Assembly: GCA_003022565.1 (NCBI GenBank)
Contig: PXTN01000023.1
Location: 1 to 40,972, forward strand
Source: Bacteroidetes bacterium QS_3_64_15
GTDB taxonomy: Bacteria > Bacteroidota > Rhodothermia > Rhodothermales > Salinibacteraceae
DNA length: 40,972 nt
Reading direction: 5' to 3'
Part shown: positions 954-40,972 of the stretch, one piece after another
Layout: each line of letters starts with the position of its first letter
Position numbering within the stretch: position 1 is the stretch's first letter
Made by a program: the position numbers and the translations under genes
The notes under the pieces: generated by a model
What the model was told of the DNA's origin: nothing
What the model saw: the letters and a program-made list of their open reading frames with translations, nothing else
The model's database searches: none

Positions 954-1120
954 TTGCGAACCTGTTTGGCGGATGGATACGTAGCTGAGACACAGTGGGC
1001 GAAGTGCAGAACGGTGCCCAAACGACCCCTGTAGTGGACTACCGGGGGAGTGAAGAAGCCGTTCTGCACGAGATCCACGAAGTCACAGGCCGTAGACAGT
1101 CCGCCAAACAGGTTCTGCAA
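954..1120 (+). repeat. Structured inverted-terminal repeat element, copy A
   Basis: A 167 bp element with near-perfect 20/21 bp inverted ends (954-973 against 1100-1120, core CTGTTTGGCGGA/TCCGCCAAACAG). Inside it are a second 11 bp inverted repeat (GTGCAGAACGG at about 1004-1014 with its complement at about 1059-1069) and a small central hairpin (GTAGT-GG-ACTAC). A homologous copy lies in inverted orientation at 12356-12517. The two copies share CACAGTGGGCGAAG and GAGATCCACGAAGTC. At five paired positions the bases differ between copies but pairing is kept. No open frame in it looks coding. It sits between atpG and tRNA-Ser. It could be a MITE, a REP-type element or a structured RNA. Confidence 0.8.
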
Positions 1121-2951: not shown

Positions 2952-4217
2952 ATGCCGACCTATGCCGATGCCCCCTTCACCGAAGATCAGCAGGAGGCCT
3001 ACGATCGGGTCTACGACCGCCTCGCCCGCGGCGAGCGGTTCACGGGCCTGCGCGGGTACGCTGGCACGGGCAAGACGTACCTCGTGAGTCGCCTCGTGGA
3101 GCAGCTCCTGGACGAGGACTGCGCGGTGACCGTCTGCGCCCCCACCCACAAGGCCGTACAAGTGCTGAGCGAGGAGCTGGGCGATGCACCCGTGCAGATG
3201 CAAACGCTCCACTCATTTCTCGGCCTGCGCCTGAACCCCACGGAGGAGGGGGAATACGAGCTGGTGGCCGAGGAGGAGCGCGACTTCACCGAAGGCGTCG
3301 TGATCGTTGACGAGGCCTCCATGATCGGACGCGAGGAGTGGTCGCACATCGAGGACGCCCCCTTCTGGGTGCAGTGGCTCTTCGTGGGCGATCCGGCTCA
3401 GCTTCCGCCTGTGAACGAGGAGCCCTCGCCCGCGCTCGACGTACCCGGGCCTACGCTGGAGACGATTCACCGCCAAGCCGCCGATAATCCCATCCTGGAG
3501 CTGGCCACAAAGATCCGCACCGGGGCCGACGGGCGTTTCGGCAGCAAGTTCGAGGACGGGAAGGGCGTCGCCGTCACGCGCAACCGCGAGGAGTTTCTCG
3601 ACAGCGTCCTCCGCACGTTCGACACGGAGGCCTTCGCCGAGGACGCCACCCACGCCCGCATGCTCGCCTACCGCAACAAGACCGTCCGCCGCTACAACCG
3701 TGAGATCCGCGCCGAGCGCTACGGCGCCGACGCGGACCGATTCGTAGAGGGAGAGTGGCTGGTGGGCACCGAAACGTGGTTCCACGATGGCGTGCAGCGC
3801 CTCACCAACAGCGAGGAGGTGCGCGTCAAAAAGGCGACCGTCGACACATTTGAGGCCGACGATCAGAGCGAGTGGACGGTGTGGGAACTGAAGGTGCGCA
3901 CGCCGGGCCGCGGGCTCACGCGGACGGTCCACATATTGCACGAGGATGAGTTTGAGCGCTACGAAGAGCGGCTGGAGCGCCGCCGCGAAAAGGCCCAGGA
4001 TGATCCCTCGAAGTGGGACCGGTTTTTTGAGCTGCGGGAGCAGTTTGCGCGGGTCGACTACGCGTACGCCACGACGGTACACCGCGCACAGGGCTCCACT
4101 TACGACACGGTGTTCGTAGACCATCGGGACGTGCGGGTGTGCCGGGGCGACGAGCGGGACGCGCTCCTCTACGTGGCGGTCACGCGCCCGTCCCGCCGCC
4201 TGGCGCTGCTGGTGTAG
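2952..4217 (+). CDS. RecD/Dda-like ATP-dependent DNA helicase (SF1B)
   Basis: A 421-residue superfamily 1 helicase. The sequence shows Walker A GYAGTGKT at 35-42, motif Ia CAPTHKA, Walker B VIVDEAS at about 117-123, motif III GDPAQLPP at about 145, and C-terminal motif V/VI residues in TTVHRAQGSTYDTVFVD and YVAVTRP. The order and the short length fit a stand-alone RecD-like/Dda-type 5'-3' helicase rather than full RecD2 (~720 aa) or RecBCD RecD; no RecB or RecC is near. It probably acts in the cytoplasm on recombination or repair intermediates. The protein is strongly acidic. Its TAG stop (4215-4217) forms the first three bases of the repeat at 4215-4412, so the present C-terminus may have been set by insertion of that repeat. 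Confidence 0.85.
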   Translation: MPTYADAPFTEDQQEAYDRVYDRLARGERFTGLRGYAGTGKTYLVSRLVEQLLDEDCAVTVCAPTHKAVQVLSEELGDAPVQMQTLHSFLGLRLNPTEEGEYELVAEEERDFTEGVVIVDEASMIGREEWSHIEDAPFWVQWLFVGDPAQLPPVNEEPSPALDVPGPTLETIHRQAADNPILELATKIRTGADGRFGSKFEDGKGVAVTRNREEFLDSVLRTFDTEAFAEDATHARMLAYRNKTVRRYNREIRAERYGADADRFVEGEWLVGTETWFHDGVQRLTNSEEVRVKKATVDTFEADDQSEWTVWELKVRTPGRGLTRTVHILHEDEFERYEERLERRREKAQDDPSKWDRFFELREQFARVDYAYATTVHRAQGSTYDTVFVDHRDVRVCRGDERDALLYVAVTRPSRRLALLV

Positions 4218-4412
4218 TACTTCGTCAACCGTAATTTTCTAAACGAAGAGTAGGGCGTGCTGCGTAAGCCGGAGTGCAGTGTGTGAATAGTGATGCGTGA
4301 AGCGTGAGCCGTGAGACGCCGTTTCCTGTACGCATCACGTCTTCACGCATCACGGGAAGGGAAGTAATGGAAAGGATGCCTGTCCCCAAAATAAGCCTTG
4401 ACGCTGTAGCAG
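4215..4412 (+). repeat. ~200 bp direct repeat, copy 1
   Basis: It is homologous along its whole length to 5776-5989 in the same orientation. Both start TAGTACTTCGTCAACCGTAA and end in TGACGCTGTAG. The ends form a weak inverted repeat (TACTTCGTCAAC against TACAGCGTCAAG on the other strand). Inside is a palindromic block of GTGATGCGTGA followed by its complement. The complement is built from a 15 bp unit (TCTTCACGCATCACG type); this copy has one unit fewer than copy 2. No reading frame is conserved between copies, so it is a non-coding repeat, possibly a MITE. Confidence 0.85.
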
Positions 4413-5775: not shown

Positions 5776-5989
5776 ATAGTACTTCGTCAACCGTAACTTT
5801 CCAAACGAGAAGGAGGGCGTGCTGCGTGAGTCAGAGTGCAGTGTGTGGGAAGTGATGCGTGAAGCGTAAGTTTTGAGACGCCGTTTTCTTCGCATCACGT
5901 CTTCACGCATCACGTCTTCACGCATCACGGTGGAACGGAAGTAAGGAGAAGGATGCTCGTCCTCAAAATGAGCCCTGACGCTGTAGTGG
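5776..5989 (+). repeat. ~200 bp direct repeat, copy 2
   Basis: Second copy of the element at 4215-4412 in the same orientation. It contains three CACGCATCAC blocks spaced 15 bp apart, where copy 1 has two, so the copies differ by one 15 bp tandem unit. Both boundaries are sharp. The sequence before it (5698-5775) is a purine-rich GGAAG/GGGAGG tract with no visible gene. The repeat fills most of the gap between the dipeptidase start (5679) and the end of the BtuF-like gene (6018). Confidence 0.85.
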
Positions 5990-7133: not shown

Positions 7134-10100
7134 TCAGTACGCGTACTCGAAGAGCAGGTTGAGCTGCAGGGATTGCTGGTTGGTGCGGGAGCGGAGTCGC
7201 AGGTAGTCGGAAAGCCGGTACTCGAGAGTCACGTCCGGGATGAGCGCGGTGGACTGGATGGAACTTTGCGAGGAGGGAGTGAGGATGGGCTGATCGATCG
7301 ACGCGAAGAATCGCGGCGTTAGGTAGCGGCCCATGGTGAGGTAAGACGCCCCCTCTGTTCGCACGTCGAGCCGGACCACGTCCAAGCCGAGCTCGGTAGC
7401 GGCCAGGTTCTCGACGAAGGTGGAGGCCTGTCCCAGGGCCACTTGTGTGGCAAGACTGCCCCCTTCAGAGCCGCCGGTGAAGAGCTTGTCGGCCGGGCGT
7501 CCGGTGGCCAGATAGGAGAGGATGTCGCGCGTGCTCATCGGCGGCTCCGACGACAGCGACGGGGAGAGGTCGTCGGGACGACCGGAGAGCGACAGGGTGA
7601 TGCGGACCTCGGGGCTCTGGCTCCGCCGCGCCTGCTGGTCGTAGACCGCCGTCAGATCGAGGTAGGGCATGGCCGGATCGCCGTTGAACGTCATCGTCCC
7701 CGCCGTAATTTGGAACTCCTGCCCGAACTGGCGAAGCGTGCTGTGGCTCTCGACGGCCTCGATGGTGCCGAACACGCGCGCATTCTGATCGGGCTCTTTT
7801 TGCACGTCCAGGTTCCCCGTAAACTGCACGTTCATCTCAGGGGTGCTGGTGGAGCGGAACCACGTATCGCTCTGAATTCCCACGTTGAGATCCATGGCAA
7901 GGGCCGCGTAGGTATCGACCGTGGTCGTGTCGGCCGCGGAAAGGCGAAGCCCAAACCGCTCTTCGAGTGTCAACTGGTCCTGTGCGCCGAGCGACACCGT
8001 CGACAGTCCGGAGCCGCTCGCGGCGCGGACCTCGGCATAATGTATGCTTCCCTGCTTTACCTGCACGTCGCCCGCGAGCGACGGACGGCGAACGGTGCCG
8101 CGGAGTGTCATTGTGCCGTCGACCACGACGTGGCGATAGGCTGGCGTGTCGATGGCCAGGAAGTCGGAGGCGTCGAGCGTCAGGTCGTACTCGCCGACCG
8201 TAAGCTTTGGGAGTTTGATGAGGCCGTTCACCCGGAGGGAGCCGCCGTTGGAGGTGCGGACGCGGGCACTTTCGAGCGTCAGTTGGTTGTCCGAAAGCTG
8301 AAGGGTCGCTGTGCCGTTCCGGTAGGTGGTTTCGAGGGTGGGGAGGGTGGCCCCGGCGTCGGAGATCGACGCTGATCCCGAGAGCTCGGGCTGACCGAGC
8401 GTCCCGCGAATATCGGCGTCTGCAGTAAGGGTGCCAGTGATCGAATGCAGGGTGGCCGAGTCGAAGAAAGGATCCACCCAGTCGATGGGAAAGCCATCGG
8501 TGGAAGCCTCGAGCCGAACGGGCCGATCGGACACGTTCGCTGGGGAGGGGGCCTGGAGGCGAAGGTCCGCGGGCACCGAGCCGGCCACCGCCAACTCGCT
8601 TCCGTCCCGGTGCGTCAGTCGCGCATCAAGGGTCGCCTCGAGGTCTTTGTAGCCGATGTCCAGGCGAAGGGTCCCCACATCGTCCTCATCCGAGCGGAGG
8701 GCGAGGTCGAGGGTTCCGTCGAGCGTGGGGGCGGACGCGGCACCGCCAAGGCTCATCTGTCCCGTGGCGGTCCCATCGAGCCCGGAGAGGCCCAGCAGCG
8801 GGGCAAAGCCGCCGAGGCGCACCTGCTCCAAAGACGCTCGAAAATCCTGCGTGCCGCTCGGGTCTACGACCCCGTCGACCTCAATGTACTGCGCCCCGCT
8901 TTCCAGGCGCAGGTCGTCGACGCGATACGCGTTCCCGATACGGAGGGAGGTTTCCCGGGCGAGCGACCACTGGTCGGGGCCCAGGCGCGCGGTAAGCTGA
9001 TGGAGATGAATGTCCAGAGGCTCGGCCGCTGGCTGGAAGGAGGTTTCGAGACGGGCCTCGTGCTCCGAGTCCAGCTCCACGTCCGTCGATACATGGACCG
9101 TGGTCCCGTCATAGGTGGCCTGCAGGCGCGTCTGGGTGGCTGTGAGGTCGACCGCGGCGAGGTAGCCGGCGTCGACCTCAACCTCGAAGCGATCAATCAG
9201 CTGATCGGTGCCGCGCTGTCCCTTGAACGAACCCATTACGTCGCCGAGCCGGACGTCGTCGTAGAGCAATCCATCGAGCTCCACCGTCCCATCGAATTGC
9301 TGACCCCCCACTGGTCCGTAAACGTGGGCGTTCACCGTCCCTCGTTGGAGCCGCAGGGGGGAGACCCCCGCGAGGCGACCCAGCGACGCCGCGTCGGTGA
9401 CCGTTGCCTGCAGGTCGAAGTCCGAGGCGCCGGCCTGTTCGGTGAGCGCAACGGTCCCCTGGCCCCGCGCCTCCACCGCATTGGACTGAACCGTCAGGGT
9501 ATCGAGGCGGAGGAGTCCCCCGTCCACGGTTCCCGCGACCCTCGTCGTGTCGGCGCGAAGCTCGCCGACCTCCACGGAGTCGGCCGAGAAGCGCATCGAG
9601 GCCGACAGGCTGTCCAGCGCGGCCCCCCGGCCCTTCACGGACCACTGCGCAGCCCGGAGGCTGGACTGCAGGGAGTCGAGCCCGGCGAGGGCGTCGATGT
9701 CGAGGGTGCGGGCGGTGGTCGTGAGCGCGTAGCTGGGCGTGTGGTCGAGGCTGTCGAGGTGGCCGCGAAGCCGGAGCGAGCCCCCGGCCACGGCAAACTC
9801 CCCGTTGGCCTCCAGGCGGCCCTGCTCCGTGGTTGCCTCCAGGCGGCCCTCCGAGAGGAGGGCCCGGTTGATGGTGGATTCCCGGAGCGTCAGTTCGCCG
9901 GAAAGAGCGAGGTCGGACGGCGGTCCGCCGCGGGCGGTGAAGGTGAGTCCGCCGGAGAGACCAGTCGTGAGGCCGGACATGCCGGCCAAGGCGCCCAGAT
10001 CCAGGTCGTCAAACGTCGCGTCCGAGACGTCGTAGCGGGGCGTCGCGTCGAACGGGCGGGCCTCCACCGTGAGTTGCGTGCCGCCCTGTGGCGTGTCCAG

Positions 10101-12317
10101 CATCAGGGCAGATTGGAGCGTGCTGTCCCGGATTGTCGCGTCGAGGGACGCCTCCGAAATCTTCTGGCGGTTTATCCGGGAGGTGTCCAGCGTCAGGCGG
10201 GTGTCGAGCTGGAGGGTCTCGGGAGTCGTCCCCTGGACCCGACCCCGGAAAGAGCCCTGGAGGGCACTCGACTGGGTCGTATCCTGAAGGAACGGGCCGA
10301 TGTCGAGACGTCGGACGCGACCGTTTGTCACTTCGACGACGGGGACAGAGGCAAAGGGCCGTCCCGACGCCGAGAGGGACCATTCGCTCCCGTGGAGTCG
10401 GGCGTCGGCCTCTGCAGTGAGTCGGCCCTCGTCGAGGCGAGCCTCGGTGCTCAGGGACGACATCCGGTGTGGCCCGTACCGAGCATCCTGGATGGTGAGC
10501 GTGGCCCGGCCCTCCATCGTCGTCGGCGAAAAGCCCTGCCCCTCCCCCCGGAGAGCAGCTGTGACCCGACTCGCGGTCGTGTCGCCCATGAGCGCCGCCA
10601 CGTTTACGCCGTCGACCCGTGCGGTATCGAGAACGAACCGCTCCGAGCCGTCGAGGGCGGCCTGGCCGGCGACCTGCATTCGGCCCGTGGGGAAGCGCAG
10701 CGCCCCATCGGCCCGGAGGAGCTGGTCGGGGCCGAGAGCGGCCGAGAAGCGCCCGGACTCGATGACCTGAGCGCCGACCCGCGAGTCCGCCAGGGTCGCG
10801 TCGAGTTCGTACCGGGCGGAGTCGGTCGTGAGCGATTGCCCCGTGAACTGTGCGGTGGCCGTGATCGTCCCGTCAATGCCGGCGTCGGGCGCGACCGTCG
10901 CCAGCGACAGATCGCGGACCTGCGTCGACAGGTCTGCCGACGGCGCGGCGTCGAAGGGGCGCGCCGTGCCGTCCACGGAGAGTCCGATGCCGTTCAGCGT
11001 CCCGTTCAGATCCACTTCGGCGGTGCCGTCCCGAACGGTTGATTGCAGGGCGACTTCCGACACGGGCACGCCGTAGAGTCGGCTGTCGGTGATCTCGGCC
11101 TGCATGCTGCCGTTCAGCGCGTCGAGCGCCGGGCCCTCCAGGGTGCCGTCGACGCTGGCGGTAATGGTGGTTTCGGCGGAGTCGGGCGTCCCGATGAGAC
11201 TCGTGGCAAGACGACGTAGATCAGCGTCGAGTTGGTAGTGGAGCGGCGGGCCCTCAGGGATCGTCTCGGTCCGCGGGGTGGCCTCGGCCTCGACCGTCAG
11301 GCGCCCCCCGTCGCGGACGCGGGCCTTCGTCGTGAGGGACAGGCGCTGGCCCGAGCCGGTCAGACGGGCCTTCAGGTTGATGGCTTCGCGGGGATCCACG
11401 GCCAGTGTGGGAGCGAACGCCGTCAGGTCCCCGAGGACCAGCGGGGTCGCCCGGAGGGAGAGCGCGACGTCGTCCAGCGTATCGTAGGGCCCCACCGGGA
11501 GGCGGGCAACGCCGTGGCCGCGCACGTCGCTCCGGGGAGACGTGAGCCGGAGCGTATCGATCCGGAGCTGGCTGGACGAGAGGGCGCCCCGGGCGGCCAG
11601 TCGAAGATCCGTCGTGTCGGCGGGAAGCTGCCCCCGAAGGCCGAGCGTGTCGAGACGGCCTCCGATTGAGGGCCCGAATTCCAGGGCCTCAACCCGCAGA
11701 TCCAGGTCGTGGACGCGGGCCGTCGAGTCCCGTCCCTCCGCGTAAAAGTCTGCGGCAAACCGTCCGTCGGTCAGCCGCAGCCGGTCAATCTGAATCGGCA
11801 TGCCCGCACTCGTGTCGTCCGGCGCTTCTTTCGCGATGGGGGCCAGGCGGACCCAGTCCCAGGACGAGTCGGGGGCCTGGCGCATCGTCACCGAGGGGTC
11901 GCTCAGGGACACCGCGGTCAGGTGCAAACGGCCGTGAAGCAACGCGCCCAGTCGATACTGCACCGCAAGCGTGTCGACGTGGGCCATTCGGGTCGACGAG
12001 GCCGACGCGCTGTCTGGTCGGGCAAGGGATACGTTCGTCAGGCGGAGCGAGCGCACCCAGCTTCCCGACGCCCGGTCGACGGTCAGGGTCGTGTTCGGCA
12101 TCGGGTTGAACTGCCGCGCGAGAAACTGCGCGGCGGCGGTGGCGCCTGTCTCCGTCTGCAGCACGAGCAGCACGAGCCCGGCGAGCAGCACCGCCGTTCC
12201 CACCAGGCCGCCCAGGCCCCACAGTACGCGCCGTCCCCAGCGCCGGAGGGCTGAGGGGGAGGCCTCATCGGGGGAGGAGGCAGGGTCCGGACCGGAGACG
12301 GAAGGCGAGTCGGTCAC
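7134..12317 (-). CDS. tamB: TamB-like translocation/assembly module protein (DUF490)
   Basis: A 1727-residue AsmA-superfamily protein that spans the periplasm as a long beta-groove. In proteobacteria TamB works with TamA in outer-membrane protein assembly and envelope lipid transport. There is one N-terminal membrane anchor (~residues 32-54: VLWGLGGLVGTAVLLAGLVLL). A very long repetitive beta-rich middle follows, with many short strands of the type 'LxLxGxx', and then the DUF490 C-terminus (DLSPSLSSEPPMSTRDILSYL, ending LNLLFEYAY). It is longer than E. coli TamB (1259 aa), as is common for this clade. The start is GTG at 12317. The Omp85 gene lies 206 bp upstream on the same strand, and the structured repeat copy B sits between them. 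Long opposite-strand frames here, including one of 865 codons, are shadows of high-GC coding. Confidence 0.93.
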   Translation of the reverse strand: MTDSPSVSGPDPASSPDEASPSALRRWGRRVLWGLGGLVGTAVLLAGLVLLVLQTETGATAAAQFLARQFNPMPNTTLTVDRASGSWVRSLRLTNVSLARPDSASASSTRMAHVDTLAVQYRLGALLHGRLHLTAVSLSDPSVTMRQAPDSSWDWVRLAPIAKEAPDDTSAGMPIQIDRLRLTDGRFAADFYAEGRDSTARVHDLDLRVEALEFGPSIGGRLDTLGLRGQLPADTTDLRLAARGALSSSQLRIDTLRLTSPRSDVRGHGVARLPVGPYDTLDDVALSLRATPLVLGDLTAFAPTLAVDPREAINLKARLTGSGQRLSLTTKARVRDGGRLTVEAEATPRTETIPEGPPLHYQLDADLRRLATSLIGTPDSAETTITASVDGTLEGPALDALNGSMQAEITDSRLYGVPVSEVALQSTVRDGTAEVDLNGTLNGIGLSVDGTARPFDAAPSADLSTQVRDLSLATVAPDAGIDGTITATAQFTGQSLTTDSARYELDATLADSRVGAQVIESGRFSAALGPDQLLRADGALRFPTGRMQVAGQAALDGSERFVLDTARVDGVNVAALMGDTTASRVTAALRGEGQGFSPTTMEGRATLTIQDARYGPHRMSSLSTEARLDEGRLTAEADARLHGSEWSLSASGRPFASVPVVEVTNGRVRRLDIGPFLQDTTQSSALQGSFRGRVQGTTPETLQLDTRLTLDTSRINRQKISEASLDATIRDSTLQSALMLDTPQGGTQLTVEARPFDATPRYDVSDATFDDLDLGALAGMSGLTTGLSGGLTFTARGGPPSDLALSGELTLRESTINRALLSEGRLEATTEQGRLEANGEFAVAGGSLRLRGHLDSLDHTPSYALTTTARTLDIDALAGLDSLQSSLRAAQWSVKGRGAALDSLSASMRFSADSVEVGELRADTTRVAGTVDGGLLRLDTLTVQSNAVEARGQGTVALTEQAGASDFDLQATVTDAASLGRLAGVSPLRLQRGTVNAHVYGPVGGQQFDGTVELDGLLYDDVRLGDVMGSFKGQRGTDQLIDRFEVEVDAGYLAAVDLTATQTRLQATYDGTTVHVSTDVELDSEHEARLETSFQPAAEPLDIHLHQLTARLGPDQWSLARETSLRIGNAYRVDDLRLESGAQYIEVDGVVDPSGTQDFRASLEQVRLGGFAPLLGLSGLDGTATGQMSLGGAASAPTLDGTLDLALRSDEDDVGTLRLDIGYKDLEATLDARLTHRDGSELAVAGSVPADLRLQAPSPANVSDRPVRLEASTDGFPIDWVDPFFDSATLHSITGTLTADADIRGTLGQPELSGSASISDAGATLPTLETTYRNGTATLQLSDNQLTLESARVRTSNGGSLRVNGLIKLPKLTVGEYDLTLDASDFLAIDTPAYRHVVVDGTMTLRGTVRRPSLAGDVQVKQGSIHYAEVRAASGSGLSTVSLGAQDQLTLEERFGLRLSAADTTTVDTYAALAMDLNVGIQSDTWFRSTSTPEMNVQFTGNLDVQKEPDQNARVFGTIEAVESHSTLRQFGQEFQITAGTMTFNGDPAMPYLDLTAVYDQQARRSQSPEVRITLSLSGRPDDLSPSLSSEPPMSTRDILSYLATGRPADKLFTGGSEGGSLATQVALGQASTFVENLAATELGLDVVRLDVRTEGASYLTMGRYLTPRFFASIDQPILTPSSQSSIQSTALIPDVTLEYRLSDYLRLRSRTNQQSLQLNLLFEYAY

Positions 12318-12355
12318 AGCAGGAACAAGAGGAGAGAGGGGAGGATCGGTGCTTC

Positions 12356-12517
12356 AGAAGCTGTTTGGCGGACGCTCTGTGGCCTGCGACTTCGTGGATC
12401 TCGCGCAAAAAGGCTTCTTCGCTCACCCGGTAGCACCGCTACAGGGTTCGTTTGAGCACCTTTTTGCGGCTTCGCCCACTGTGTCTCGGCTGAACATCAA
12501 TCCACCAAACAGCTTCT
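12356..12517 (-). repeat. Structured inverted-terminal repeat element, copy B
   Basis: Homologue of 954-1120 in the opposite orientation. Terminal arms 12356-12372 and 12501-12517 pair with one mismatch. The internal stem is CGCAAAAAGG/CCTTTTTGCG, where copy A has TGCAGAACGG/CCGTTCTGCA. The central hairpin is GTAGC-GGT-GCTAC, where copy A has GTAGT-GG-ACTAC. In the outer stem one C-G pair of copy A is G-C here. It lies six bases past the tamA-like stop codon and 38 bases before the tamB GTG, so it would be part of any tamA-tamB transcript. Confidence 0.8.
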
Positions 12518-12523
12518 CAGCGA

Positions 12524-14818
12524 TTAAAATGACCGCCCAATGCCGAAGTGGATCCGGAAGCGTCGGATGAAGCGAGTATCAACGTCCGACACAGGTCTCG
12601 GAGTGTCGCCCTGCACGGCCGCTCCCACGTCCTTCGCCGTGCGCAGGTCCAGAGCGTCGGGCGTCAGCTTGTGGGCCAGGTCGATCCGAAGAAAGCCGAA
12701 GGGGGTCTGGTATCGGAGTCCAGCGCCGGCCCCGACCAGAAATTGGGAGGGGGCCGTACTGACGCGCTTCCCGCTCGGGTCCGTGAGGGCGACTCCGGAT
12801 GGAGGCGTCAGATCTAGAGATCCGGCCGTCAGGTAGGCCCCATCCACAAACGCAGCGGTGCGCCAGTCGGACCCAAGCCCGGGTAGGGGGAAGCGTGCCT
12901 CCACGCTCGCGCCGATTTTGGCCCGGGCCCCGATGGGCCGATACACAAACCCCTCTCGGCGTACCGAGGACTCTCGAAGAACCTTCCCTCCGGCAAGACG
13001 AGACGCCCACCCCCGCACGTCGCTCCCGCCGCCGGCGTAGAAGAGGTAGTCGGAGAAGCGATTCTGGTACACTCGACTCTGCTGGAGCTCCTCATCAGAC
13101 GGAGATCCGGGCAGGGTGAGGTTGGACCGGCTCTCCCCAAACGGCCGCAGTGTCCCGGCAAACACTCGCCCCGCCACCTCGACGTACTCGGAGAGGGGCA
13201 GGTAGCCGCTCAGTTCGCCGCTCAGCTTCACGAATTCCACCCCCGACTCAAAGAAATAGCCCCCCAACTGAATGGTGGGGCGGACGATGTACCCCTTCGT
13301 GGGGCTGATAAAGTCGTCGGCGTCCCCGAACGTCCCGTTCACGGTGAAAATGCTCTTGTTGAAAGGGGCGTCCCCTGTGCCCAGGGGCGCTTCGGCCCGA
13401 GCGCTGTCCCGGCTGCCCGGCGCTGAAAACTGCCGGGTGCGGCTGACCGAGTGCTGCAGCGAGAGCGTCCGGTAGGGGAGAAAGTCGTAGACCAGGGTCG
13501 AGTTGAGCCCGTACTGTCGCTCGTTGAGATTCAAGAAGCGATTGGGGTTCGGCGCGAGGGTCGGGTTCAGTCGCTCCTGCACGAAGGGGGCCACGGAGCC
13601 GGAAAGGGCTTCCGAAAACAGGTACGGCTGTCGGAGGGTCACCGAGGCGCGGAACCGACGGCTGAGGGCCTGCGACGATCGGGTAAGAAAGTTCGAGAAG
13701 AAGGTTGGGGGATTTTCGGGGAGTCCCGTCTCGGCCGTCAGGTTGACGATGAAGGTGCGGGCGTTTCCGAGAAAGTTGCGGTGGCGCCAACTGCCCTCGA
13801 GCCGCGCGCCCGAACGCGTGTCGTACCCCACCTGGCCGGAGTACGCCCGGATCTCCGTCTCCCGGACCCGATAGCGCACCGCGACGGTGCTGTCGCGAGG
13901 CTGGTTTGGCACGTCGGCCAGGGCCACCCGAAAGAGGTCGAGGTTGAATAGCTTTCGCTGCCCCTCCCGCACGGCATCGGCCGAAAAGCGATCGTCCACC
14001 GAGAACGGCAGTTCCCGCAGAATAATCGGGTCGTTGATCGATTCGTTACCCTCGATTCGAATCTCGGACACCACGCCGCGAGGCCCCGGGTCCGCGAAAA
14101 CGGTCAGGTCAGCGGCATACTGGATCGTATCCACCGCCGTGCGGACCTCGGCGAAGGCGTATCCGCGGCTTCGGAGCCAGGACTGAATCTGGTCCTCGAT
14201 CTGCGTGCGCTTGAAATCGGTGTAGCGGCCCTCAGTCTGCAGGGTCTCGTCCCGGTAACGCGTCCACGCATCGCGCAGGTCGTCCGGCAACGCCGTCTCG
14301 ATCGCCGTGGTATCCCCGGTGGTCAAAAACTGGGTATTCCGGATCTGTATCGAAGGCCCCTCCCGGATGGTAAAGATGACGTGGATTTGATTGCTTGAGG
14401 TATCGAGTTGCGTAGCCGGATAGTCAACCTCGGGCGTGGGAAACCCGTTCTGCCGGTAGAATTGACGCAGGCGGACGACATCCTTCTGGAGGGTCACTGG
14501 ATCGAACGGGAATCGATGTCGCTGCACGCCCGGCAGAAACGCGAACAGGTTCCGCAGGTGGGCGAGCACTCCGGGGGCGGCCGTCGCAATTTGCTCCTGG
14601 AGCCGACTCGTCTCGAAGGTCTGCTGGTCCATGAACCGGTACGAGACCTCCTGGACTGTGGTGTTGCTGTTTGCGGCCCACAGCGGCGCCTGAGCAGCGG
14701 CCTTGGGGGGGGCGCCCCCCACGAAGCCGGTCAGCAGTGCGGCGAGCAGGAGGCCGGGGGAGCAAACGGGACGATTGGGAGCAAACGAGTGGGGGAGCAC
14801 CGTGGACGAGACGTGCAA
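12524..14818 (-). CDS. Omp85-family outer-membrane protein (TamA/BamA-like)
   Basis: A 764-residue outer-membrane barrel of the Omp85 superfamily. A Sec signal (LLLAALLTGFVGGAPPKAAAQA, ~residues 23-44) is followed by POTRA-type repeats (~55-340; for example DVVRLRQFYRQNGFPTPEVDY and GVVSEIRIEGNESINDPIIL) and a C-terminal 16-strand-type barrel ending in Phe (FRIHFGIGRSF), the usual recognition signal for barrel insertion. The TTG at 14818 is the first possible start of the open frame; a GTG at 14800 is an alternative. Both leave the signal peptide complete. Its place directly before the TamB-like gene suggests a TamA role, although BamA-like architecture cannot be excluded without comparing POTRA counts. 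Confidence 0.88.
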   Translation of the reverse strand: MHVSSTVLPHSFAPNRPVCSPGLLLAALLTGFVGGAPPKAAAQAPLWAANSNTTVQEVSYRFMDQQTFETSRLQEQIATAAPGVLAHLRNLFAFLPGVQRHRFPFDPVTLQKDVVRLRQFYRQNGFPTPEVDYPATQLDTSSNQIHVIFTIREGPSIQIRNTQFLTTGDTTAIETALPDDLRDAWTRYRDETLQTEGRYTDFKRTQIEDQIQSWLRSRGYAFAEVRTAVDTIQYAADLTVFADPGPRGVVSEIRIEGNESINDPIILRELPFSVDDRFSADAVREGQRKLFNLDLFRVALADVPNQPRDSTVAVRYRVRETEIRAYSGQVGYDTRSGARLEGSWRHRNFLGNARTFIVNLTAETGLPENPPTFFSNFLTRSSQALSRRFRASVTLRQPYLFSEALSGSVAPFVQERLNPTLAPNPNRFLNLNERQYGLNSTLVYDFLPYRTLSLQHSVSRTRQFSAPGSRDSARAEAPLGTGDAPFNKSIFTVNGTFGDADDFISPTKGYIVRPTIQLGGYFFESGVEFVKLSGELSGYLPLSEYVEVAGRVFAGTLRPFGESRSNLTLPGSPSDEELQQSRVYQNRFSDYLFYAGGGSDVRGWASRLAGGKVLRESSVRREGFVYRPIGARAKIGASVEARFPLPGLGSDWRTAAFVDGAYLTAGSLDLTPPSGVALTDPSGKRVSTAPSQFLVGAGAGLRYQTPFGFLRIDLAHKLTPDALDLRTAKDVGAAVQGDTPRPVSDVDTRFIRRFRIHFGIGRSF

Positions 14819-25731: not shown

Positions 25732-25855
25732 CTCCCGCGTCCCCGCGTCCCCGCGTCCCCGCGTCCCCCTCGTTCAACGTTCAACGTACCACGTTCAACG
25801 CAAAACGCCTCCCAGTGTCCCCACGCCCTTTCCCCCACTCCCCCATTCTCCTCTG
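25732..25855 (-). repeat. Minisatellite, opposite strand of the 21195 and 40781 tracts
   Basis: Reading the minus strand it contains GGGGGAATGGGGGAGT-type units, then GTTGAACG units, then four or five perfect GACGCGGGG units. A stretch of about 35 bp (CGTTGAACGTGGTACGTTGA and onward) is almost identical to part of 40781-40918, and the AATGGGGGAG part matches 21195-21292. It fills the gap between the aminotransferase start and the metE leader. Confidence 0.75.
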
Positions 25856-40784: not shown

Positions 40785-40918
40785 ACGTTGGCGCGTTGTG
40801 CGTTGAACGTGGTACGTTGGACCGTTGAACGTGGTACGTTGAACGTTGAACGAGGGGGGACGCGTTGGGCGTTGAACGTGGCGCGTTGAAGGTTGAACGA
40901 GGGGGACGCGGGGATGCG
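40781..40918 (+). repeat. GTTGAACG / GACGCGGGG minisatellite
   Basis: Seven or more degenerate units of (C)GTTGAACGTGGTAC and GTTGGCGCGTT, followed by GGGGGACGCGGGGATGCGG. About 35 bp are nearly identical to the minus strand of 25732-25855. The first TTGA supplies the stop codon of the ligase gene. Nothing gene-like is visible from here to the window end. Confidence 0.8.
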
Positions 40919-40972
40919 GCGAGGTCGTTGTTTCGTGGTGTCCCCTTTGCTCCGCGTCGGTGCGAACAGAGC

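Follow-up and report, generated by a model that had tools for sequence, protein, structure and literature searches.

The window analysed here, a stretch of 40,972 nucleotides from Bacteroidetes bacterium QS_3_64_15 (contig PXTN01000023.1), contains two copies of a repeat in inverted orientation. Copy 1 occupies positions 958-1115 with its folded (sense) strand on the + strand, and copy 2 occupies positions 12357-12516 with its folded (sense) strand on the - strand; the respective covariance-model matches score 178.6 and 185.6 bits. The two align at a mean column identity of 86%, which bears out the inverted pair described in the initial annotation. Element borders were fixed from target-site duplications together with the covariance model. 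The 3-bp direct repeats around both copies are perfect, with TGC at 955-957 and 1116-1118 bordering copy 1 on its left and right, and TCA at 12354-12356 and 12517-12519 bordering copy 2. Copy 1 is flanked on one side by a 295-aa ORF, which we take from its sequence to encode an ATP synthase gamma-like protein, and on the other by a tRNA gene. For copy 2, the insertion site is a short space separating two - strand genes (ORFs 12524-14818 and 7134-12317), 7 bp after one and 39 bp before the next. From a reading of their sequences, these genes presumably encode outer-membrane BamA/TamA-type and TamB-type proteins.

Both copies fold into one shared rod, with -90.6 kcal/mol (z -11.4) for copy 1 and -77.9 kcal/mol (z -7.9) for copy 2. 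In copy 1, the left terminal inverted repeat (TIR) GAACCTGTTTGGCGGA (958-973, +) is the 5' strand of the outer stem and the right TIR (1100-1115, -) its 3' strand. Between them lie the conserved block GACACAGTGGGCGAAG (989-1004, +), in which GAC and GTGG are paired with conserved loops in between; the 5' strand of a fast-covarying middle stem, TGCAGAACGGT (1005-1015, +); an apical hairpin (1027-1046, +), whose loop houses optional module i in longer copies; the 3' strand of the middle stem, CCGTTCTGCA (1059-1068, +); and the conserved block GAGATCCACGAAGTC (1070-1084, +), the 3' partner of the GACACAGTGG block. Two blocks, CACAGTGGGCGAAG and GAGATCCACGAAGTC, had been described as conserved and unpaired; they are present and conserved, but partly paired, GTGG with CCAC and GAC with GTC. 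The five compensatory pairs reported initially are all there (pair 4 of the outer stem, C-G/G-C; three pairs of the middle stem; one of the apical hairpin), and at least two others had been overlooked, at A2 columns 22/144 (A-T to G-C) and 23/143 (C-G to T-A).

The repeat is a palindromic element of ~160 bp with ends GARNCTGTTTGGYGGA, and its 16-bp TIRs are in many copies exact in pairs. No transposase gene is present within it, and the 94 distinct copies analysed range in size from 75 to 261 nt. Exact 3-bp direct flanks border 58 of these 94, against 1.5 expected and 1-2 at offset controls, and 54 of the 58 duplications read TNA. We also matched the joined flanks of the window copies to same-genus genomes, which revealed orthologous sites lacking the element for copy 1 in G007, G011 and G004 and for copy 2 in G006, G007 and G004. 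At copy 1 the junction aligns clearly on the right; at copy 2, where the intergenic DNA has diverged, the alignment is looser. Since the loci are uninterrupted in these relatives, both window insertions appear younger than the split from them. The element is a MITE; TIRs, target-site duplications and empty orthologous sites together uphold the mobility half of the earlier proposal of a structured mobile element. As judged with a simple hexamer gene caller, the strands of the genes before and after intergenic copies, relative to the folded strand, are ++ in 28 cases, -- in 28, +- in 15 and -+ in 11, with no orientation bias of copies relative to genes; a called ORF overlaps 12 further copies, mostly through partial or weak calls.

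A covariance model built on 27 copies (R1) places the element at at least 28 distinct sites in the window's own genome, in which BLAST with copy 1 as query likewise returns dozens of matching stretches. By the same model, 19 of 27 Salinibacteraceae genomes are carriers, representing 8 of 9 genera of these salt-loving, Salinibacter-type bacteria, and BLAST of genomes from other families of the order gave no match. Matches in named records come solely from Salinibacter (S. altiplanensis and the S. ruber plasmids pSR84 and pSR67), Salinivenus (one MAG) and MAGs assigned to Bacteroidota. A scan of IMG/VR for the exact conserved block found no viral contig with a copy, and Rfam covariance models (HEARO, introns and others) gave no match at the gathering score and none meaningful at E<=10. 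In a literature search with coverage of subscription papers mostly lacking, we found no description of the element in Salinibacter.

IS5-family transposases (NF033580) in the same bacteria reside in elements of 833-935 bp, whose ends include GAGTCTGTTTTGATTT, GAGGCTGTTTAGTAA, GAGGCTATTTGAAA and GAGCCTGTATTCAAAG and which are flanked by 3-bp TNA duplications, a pattern that we take to be that of IS1031/IS427-like groups. In six IS5-type elements from this bacterial family, the ends are GARNCTGTTT-like or similar and the duplications TNA. The MITE shares the GARNCTGTTT-type end and the duplication with these IS5-family elements, but its own ends continue with GGCGGA; autonomous copies end in GTTTTGATTT, GTTTAGTAA and similar sequences, and none was seen with GTTTGGCGGA. 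Long TIR pairs among the retrieved loci, all nested or due to chance, revealed no autonomous parent bearing the complete GTTTGGCGGA end, and an exact end search of 114 genomes of the order, several of them incomplete assemblies that may collapse repeats, found none either. From the common ends and duplications, we infer that the element is mobilised in trans by a putative IS1031/IS427-like DDE transposase of the IS5 family. Overall, the element constitutes a new structured MITE family with IS5-type ends, of a kind already known from bcr1.

Two candidate parents were rejected. The half-length copy L015 is a truncation, and a TIR pair 1.3 kb apart in genome G009 turned out to consist of two inverted half copies on either side of a DUF1223 gene. 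At that locus (L333:1414-2730, G009:C8), two near-identical inverted 3'-half copies surround the gene (PF06764), and the flanks TTCA/TGAA are inverted with no direct duplication; the arrangement may have arisen by inversion or by capture of a gene. Other repeats were met alongside. Genome G016 (L118-L127, L290-L301) holds ~100 copies of another repeat, ~200 bp long, in which the same CTGTTTGGCGGA ends, with their 3-bp duplications, enclose an unrelated interior, which suggests that several MITE families are probably moved by the same transposase. G010 has MITE-like repeats of 157 bp, whose ends GAGACTGTTTTGATTT are of IS5 type, at L078:2068-2225 and L082:1650-1807. A third family in G014 (L138-L146), ~160 bp long with the target-site duplication TAA and ends GAACCTGTTTGGG / GAACCTGTTTTGATTT, is written in other letters and forms a comparable rod topped by a GTAGC..GCTAC hairpin; its covariance-model matches are weak.

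About a third of copies carry extra hairpin modules at four places: in the apical loop (GGCCGAGCGAGAGCGAGGTCATGCCC...), in the 3' strand of the middle stem, and on each side of the internal loop that lies beneath the conserved blocks. The two internal-loop modules could pair in some copies, as GCGAGTA, judged by eye, could with TACTCGC in L172. Longer complete copies measure 264-350 nt, plus one of 622 nt (L172:1937-2558, G009) that has perfect ends, an ACA duplication, a folding z of -9.1 and a further long hairpin nested inside a module. A reading of the modules as independent REP-like repeats was rejected, because their sequences lie inside elements in 81 of 82 cases, albeit in DNA that was enriched for elements.

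Quantitative analysis of 27 aligned copies supported the rod. Standard pairs fill 97.2% of 1350 pair cells, a proportion that falls to 33-42% when the partner is slid by 1-3 columns. Two-sided changes affect 26 of the 50 pairs and amount to 150 cells, whereas shuffles give 40 and slid registers no more than 18. For 81 non-redundant copies, we then scored all ~12,000 column pairs by G-test with APC, using our own R-scape-like version of the covariation test, against 150 alignments simulated on a FastTree tree with each branch's substitutions re-placed. The top 12 covarying column pairs were all structural; under this tree-based null, 14 of the 50 structural pairs reached a two-set E<0.05, and all eight pairs with a whole-alignment E<1 were structural. 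The covariation proposed from two copies has therefore survived comparison with phylogenetic expectation over many copies, albeit with a home-made null: the fold is real and conserved beyond ancestry. Turnover of the middle stem is complete (TGCAGAACGG/CCGTTCTGCA, CCGCAAAAAGG/CCTTTTTGCG, CCTCCACGGA/TTCGTGGAG) while GACACAGTGGGCGAAG and GAGATCCACGAAGTCGCAGGCC stay unchanged, and in both conserved blocks the non-complementary loop letters are retained in 27 of 27 aligned copies.

The fold is also biased towards one strand. A tree-based count of events on the sense strand revealed 138 changes from Watson-Crick to G.U versus 91 to A.C (p=0.002), a moderate, 1.5-fold excess among copies that are related, so that the tests are not independent. 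A symmetric helix picker gave a weaker asymmetry of 212:157 (p=0.005) and chose some false pairs, and the tree-based count is preferred. Pair 13/148 is T.G in 38 of 81 copies and C.A in none, unpaired sites on the sense strand are 36% A and 11% T, and the sense strand folds lower than the antisense in 70 of 81 copies, with 10 of 81 better on the other strand. Because a cause at the DNA level should be strand-blind, these sense-strand asymmetries point to an RNA-like, strand-specific signal. Given the moderate effect and the non-independence of tests across related copies, we rate selection at the RNA level as likely. Covariation above the phylogenetic null and strand bias together sustain the structural half of the earlier proposal, and the initial reading as a candidate structured mobile element was largely right. 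On short terminal branches, we counted 30 changes to G.U, 20 to A.C, 19 other and 9 two-sided. These are nearly random with regard to pairing, which indicates that selection acts on spreading lineages rather than resident copies: mutation in young copies is nearly free, and the fold is maintained in the lineages that spread.

The best explanation, to which we assign a probability of roughly 0.6, is a MITE mobilised in trans by an IS5-family transposase, with a sense-strand fold selected as RNA. The element has no transposase gene of its own, and an IS5-family DDE transposase would supply its mobility. Insertion duplicates 3 bp (TNA) and has taken place between genes, in either orientation and after species divergence. 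Lineages that spread retain the one-strand rod with its conserved A-rich internal loops, compensating stems and optional hairpin modules at fixed loops, a fold presumably selected in RNA made from the element's sense strand. Its likeliest use may be to aid the element itself by binding a host or transposase factor; alternatively, a stable transcript could make insertions between co-transcribed genes tolerable. Regulation of particular neighbours is less likely, since neither the neighbours nor the orientation of copies are conserved and single copies decay almost without constraint, and cis-acting roles in mRNA lack support because there is no orientation bias to genes. Judged from sequence comparison, an RNA role of the fold is the likeliest.

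Stable RNA folds are attributed to many bacterial MITEs, but such a fold is often a trivial consequence of inverted repeats. Here the conserved part is the interior, with fixed loops and fast-turnover stems, on one strand only and with no attachment to particular genes. A long-standing question, whether bacterial MITE folds are selected for the element's own spread, thereby becomes testable; copies occur in the cultivated hosts Salinibacter ruber and S. altiplanensis, and the natural compensatory variants and modules suit structure-function work. A bolder proposal, which we regard as tentative, is that the element is a transposable noncoding RNA, in which a sense-RNA rod with conserved internal loops and pluggable side hairpins would be functional in the life cycle. 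If true, the RNA might, for example, serve as a cofactor in recruiting or regulating the IS5-family transposase, or shield host transcripts where the element has inserted, and fold selection would be acting on a MITE whose mover is a DNA transposase.

Among the rivals, a mutational one survives best, although we consider it unlikely. In an ordinary palindromic MITE, hairpin template switching or gene conversion could correct one arm from the other and so generate covariation with no selection on the fold. Long palindromes are subject to template-switch correction, which provides a precedent; moreover, 111 changes passed on both sides from Watson-Crick to Watson-Crick on one branch, and the indifference of copies to gene orientation fits as well. 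Such correction should, however, make loops complementary, whereas the block loops have kept their mismatched letters throughout the alignment. It also predicts G.T and A.C alike, yet G-U is favoured, T.G persists at pair 13/148 where C.A is absent, and unpaired sites are A-rich on one strand. Arm-to-arm gene conversion, offered as the alternative in the initial annotation, does not by itself account for covariation together with strand bias.

We give somewhat less weight to a fold of single-stranded DNA, extruded when the DNA is replicated, taken up or transposed and then recognised in hairpin form, in the manner of attC sites or IS200/IS605 ends. Integron attC sites are strand-specific folded recombination substrates with variable terminal structure, and G.T wobble is better than A.C in DNA too. 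The strand-specific bulged fold, which tolerates sequence change and extra terminal structure and is independent of gene orientation, also speaks for this mechanism. The likeness to attC is nonetheless one of working only: R'/R'' boxes (GTTRRRY) were looked for at the element ends GAANCTGTTTGG / CCAAACAGNTTC and none was present, and the element has target-site duplications and lies outside cassette arrays. TNA duplications and TIRs instead indicate double-stranded DDE transposition, while HUH single-strand transposition is not known to make target duplications. A family of stand-alone cis-regulatory or small-RNA genes (riboswitch-like, terminator or mRNA stabiliser) with a function at each locus would suit the strong fold and the intergenic positions, some in likely operons such as that of copy 2, but random orientation, sites empty in close relatives, hardly constrained young copies and the absence of an Rfam match largely refute this most improbable of the readings.

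The trans-mobilised, RNA-folding MITE that we favour finds its nearest counterparts in kind in Bacillus cereus bcr1 and pneumococcal BOX. Compensatory changes have been reported for bcr1, and BOX is modular, with serial boxes A-B-C. A REP/RAYT palindrome, with GTAG/CGTC at the hairpin foot and no duplication, was rejected, since GTAG sits in the apical stem here and target duplications are present. Described as a lineage-restricted interspersed repeat of ~150 bp with tens of copies and mobile features (PMC6542083), bcr1 resembles our element in these respects and in its predicted conserved fold, a likeness of described features; Bacillus cereus repeats (bcr group A) are also listed as a structured stem-loop family (PMC2267715). 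In contrast to bcr1, which is tied to a TTTAT motif (PMC6542083), the Salinibacteraceae element has TNA duplications, IS5-type TIRs and modular expansions. BOX shares the structured, MITE-like and modular character of our element, but its boxes are serial where our modules are hairpins at fixed internal loops, and its ends and host phylum are different. In Streptococcus pneumoniae, the BOX, RUP and SPRITE repeats, structured and MITE-like, form clusters and insert into each other (PMC10969869).

The window contains further repeats of other kinds. Inverted short strings (CGTTGAACGTGGTACGTTGAACG) at 25748-25813 and 40793-40925, 88-100% complementary and 15 kb apart, have the appearance of dispersed simple repeats. 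Direct repeats of 113 nt (86%) and 55 nt (84%) link 4215-4409 with 5777-5986 at a spacing of about 1.56 kb, and ACGCATCACGTCTTC units lie between them.
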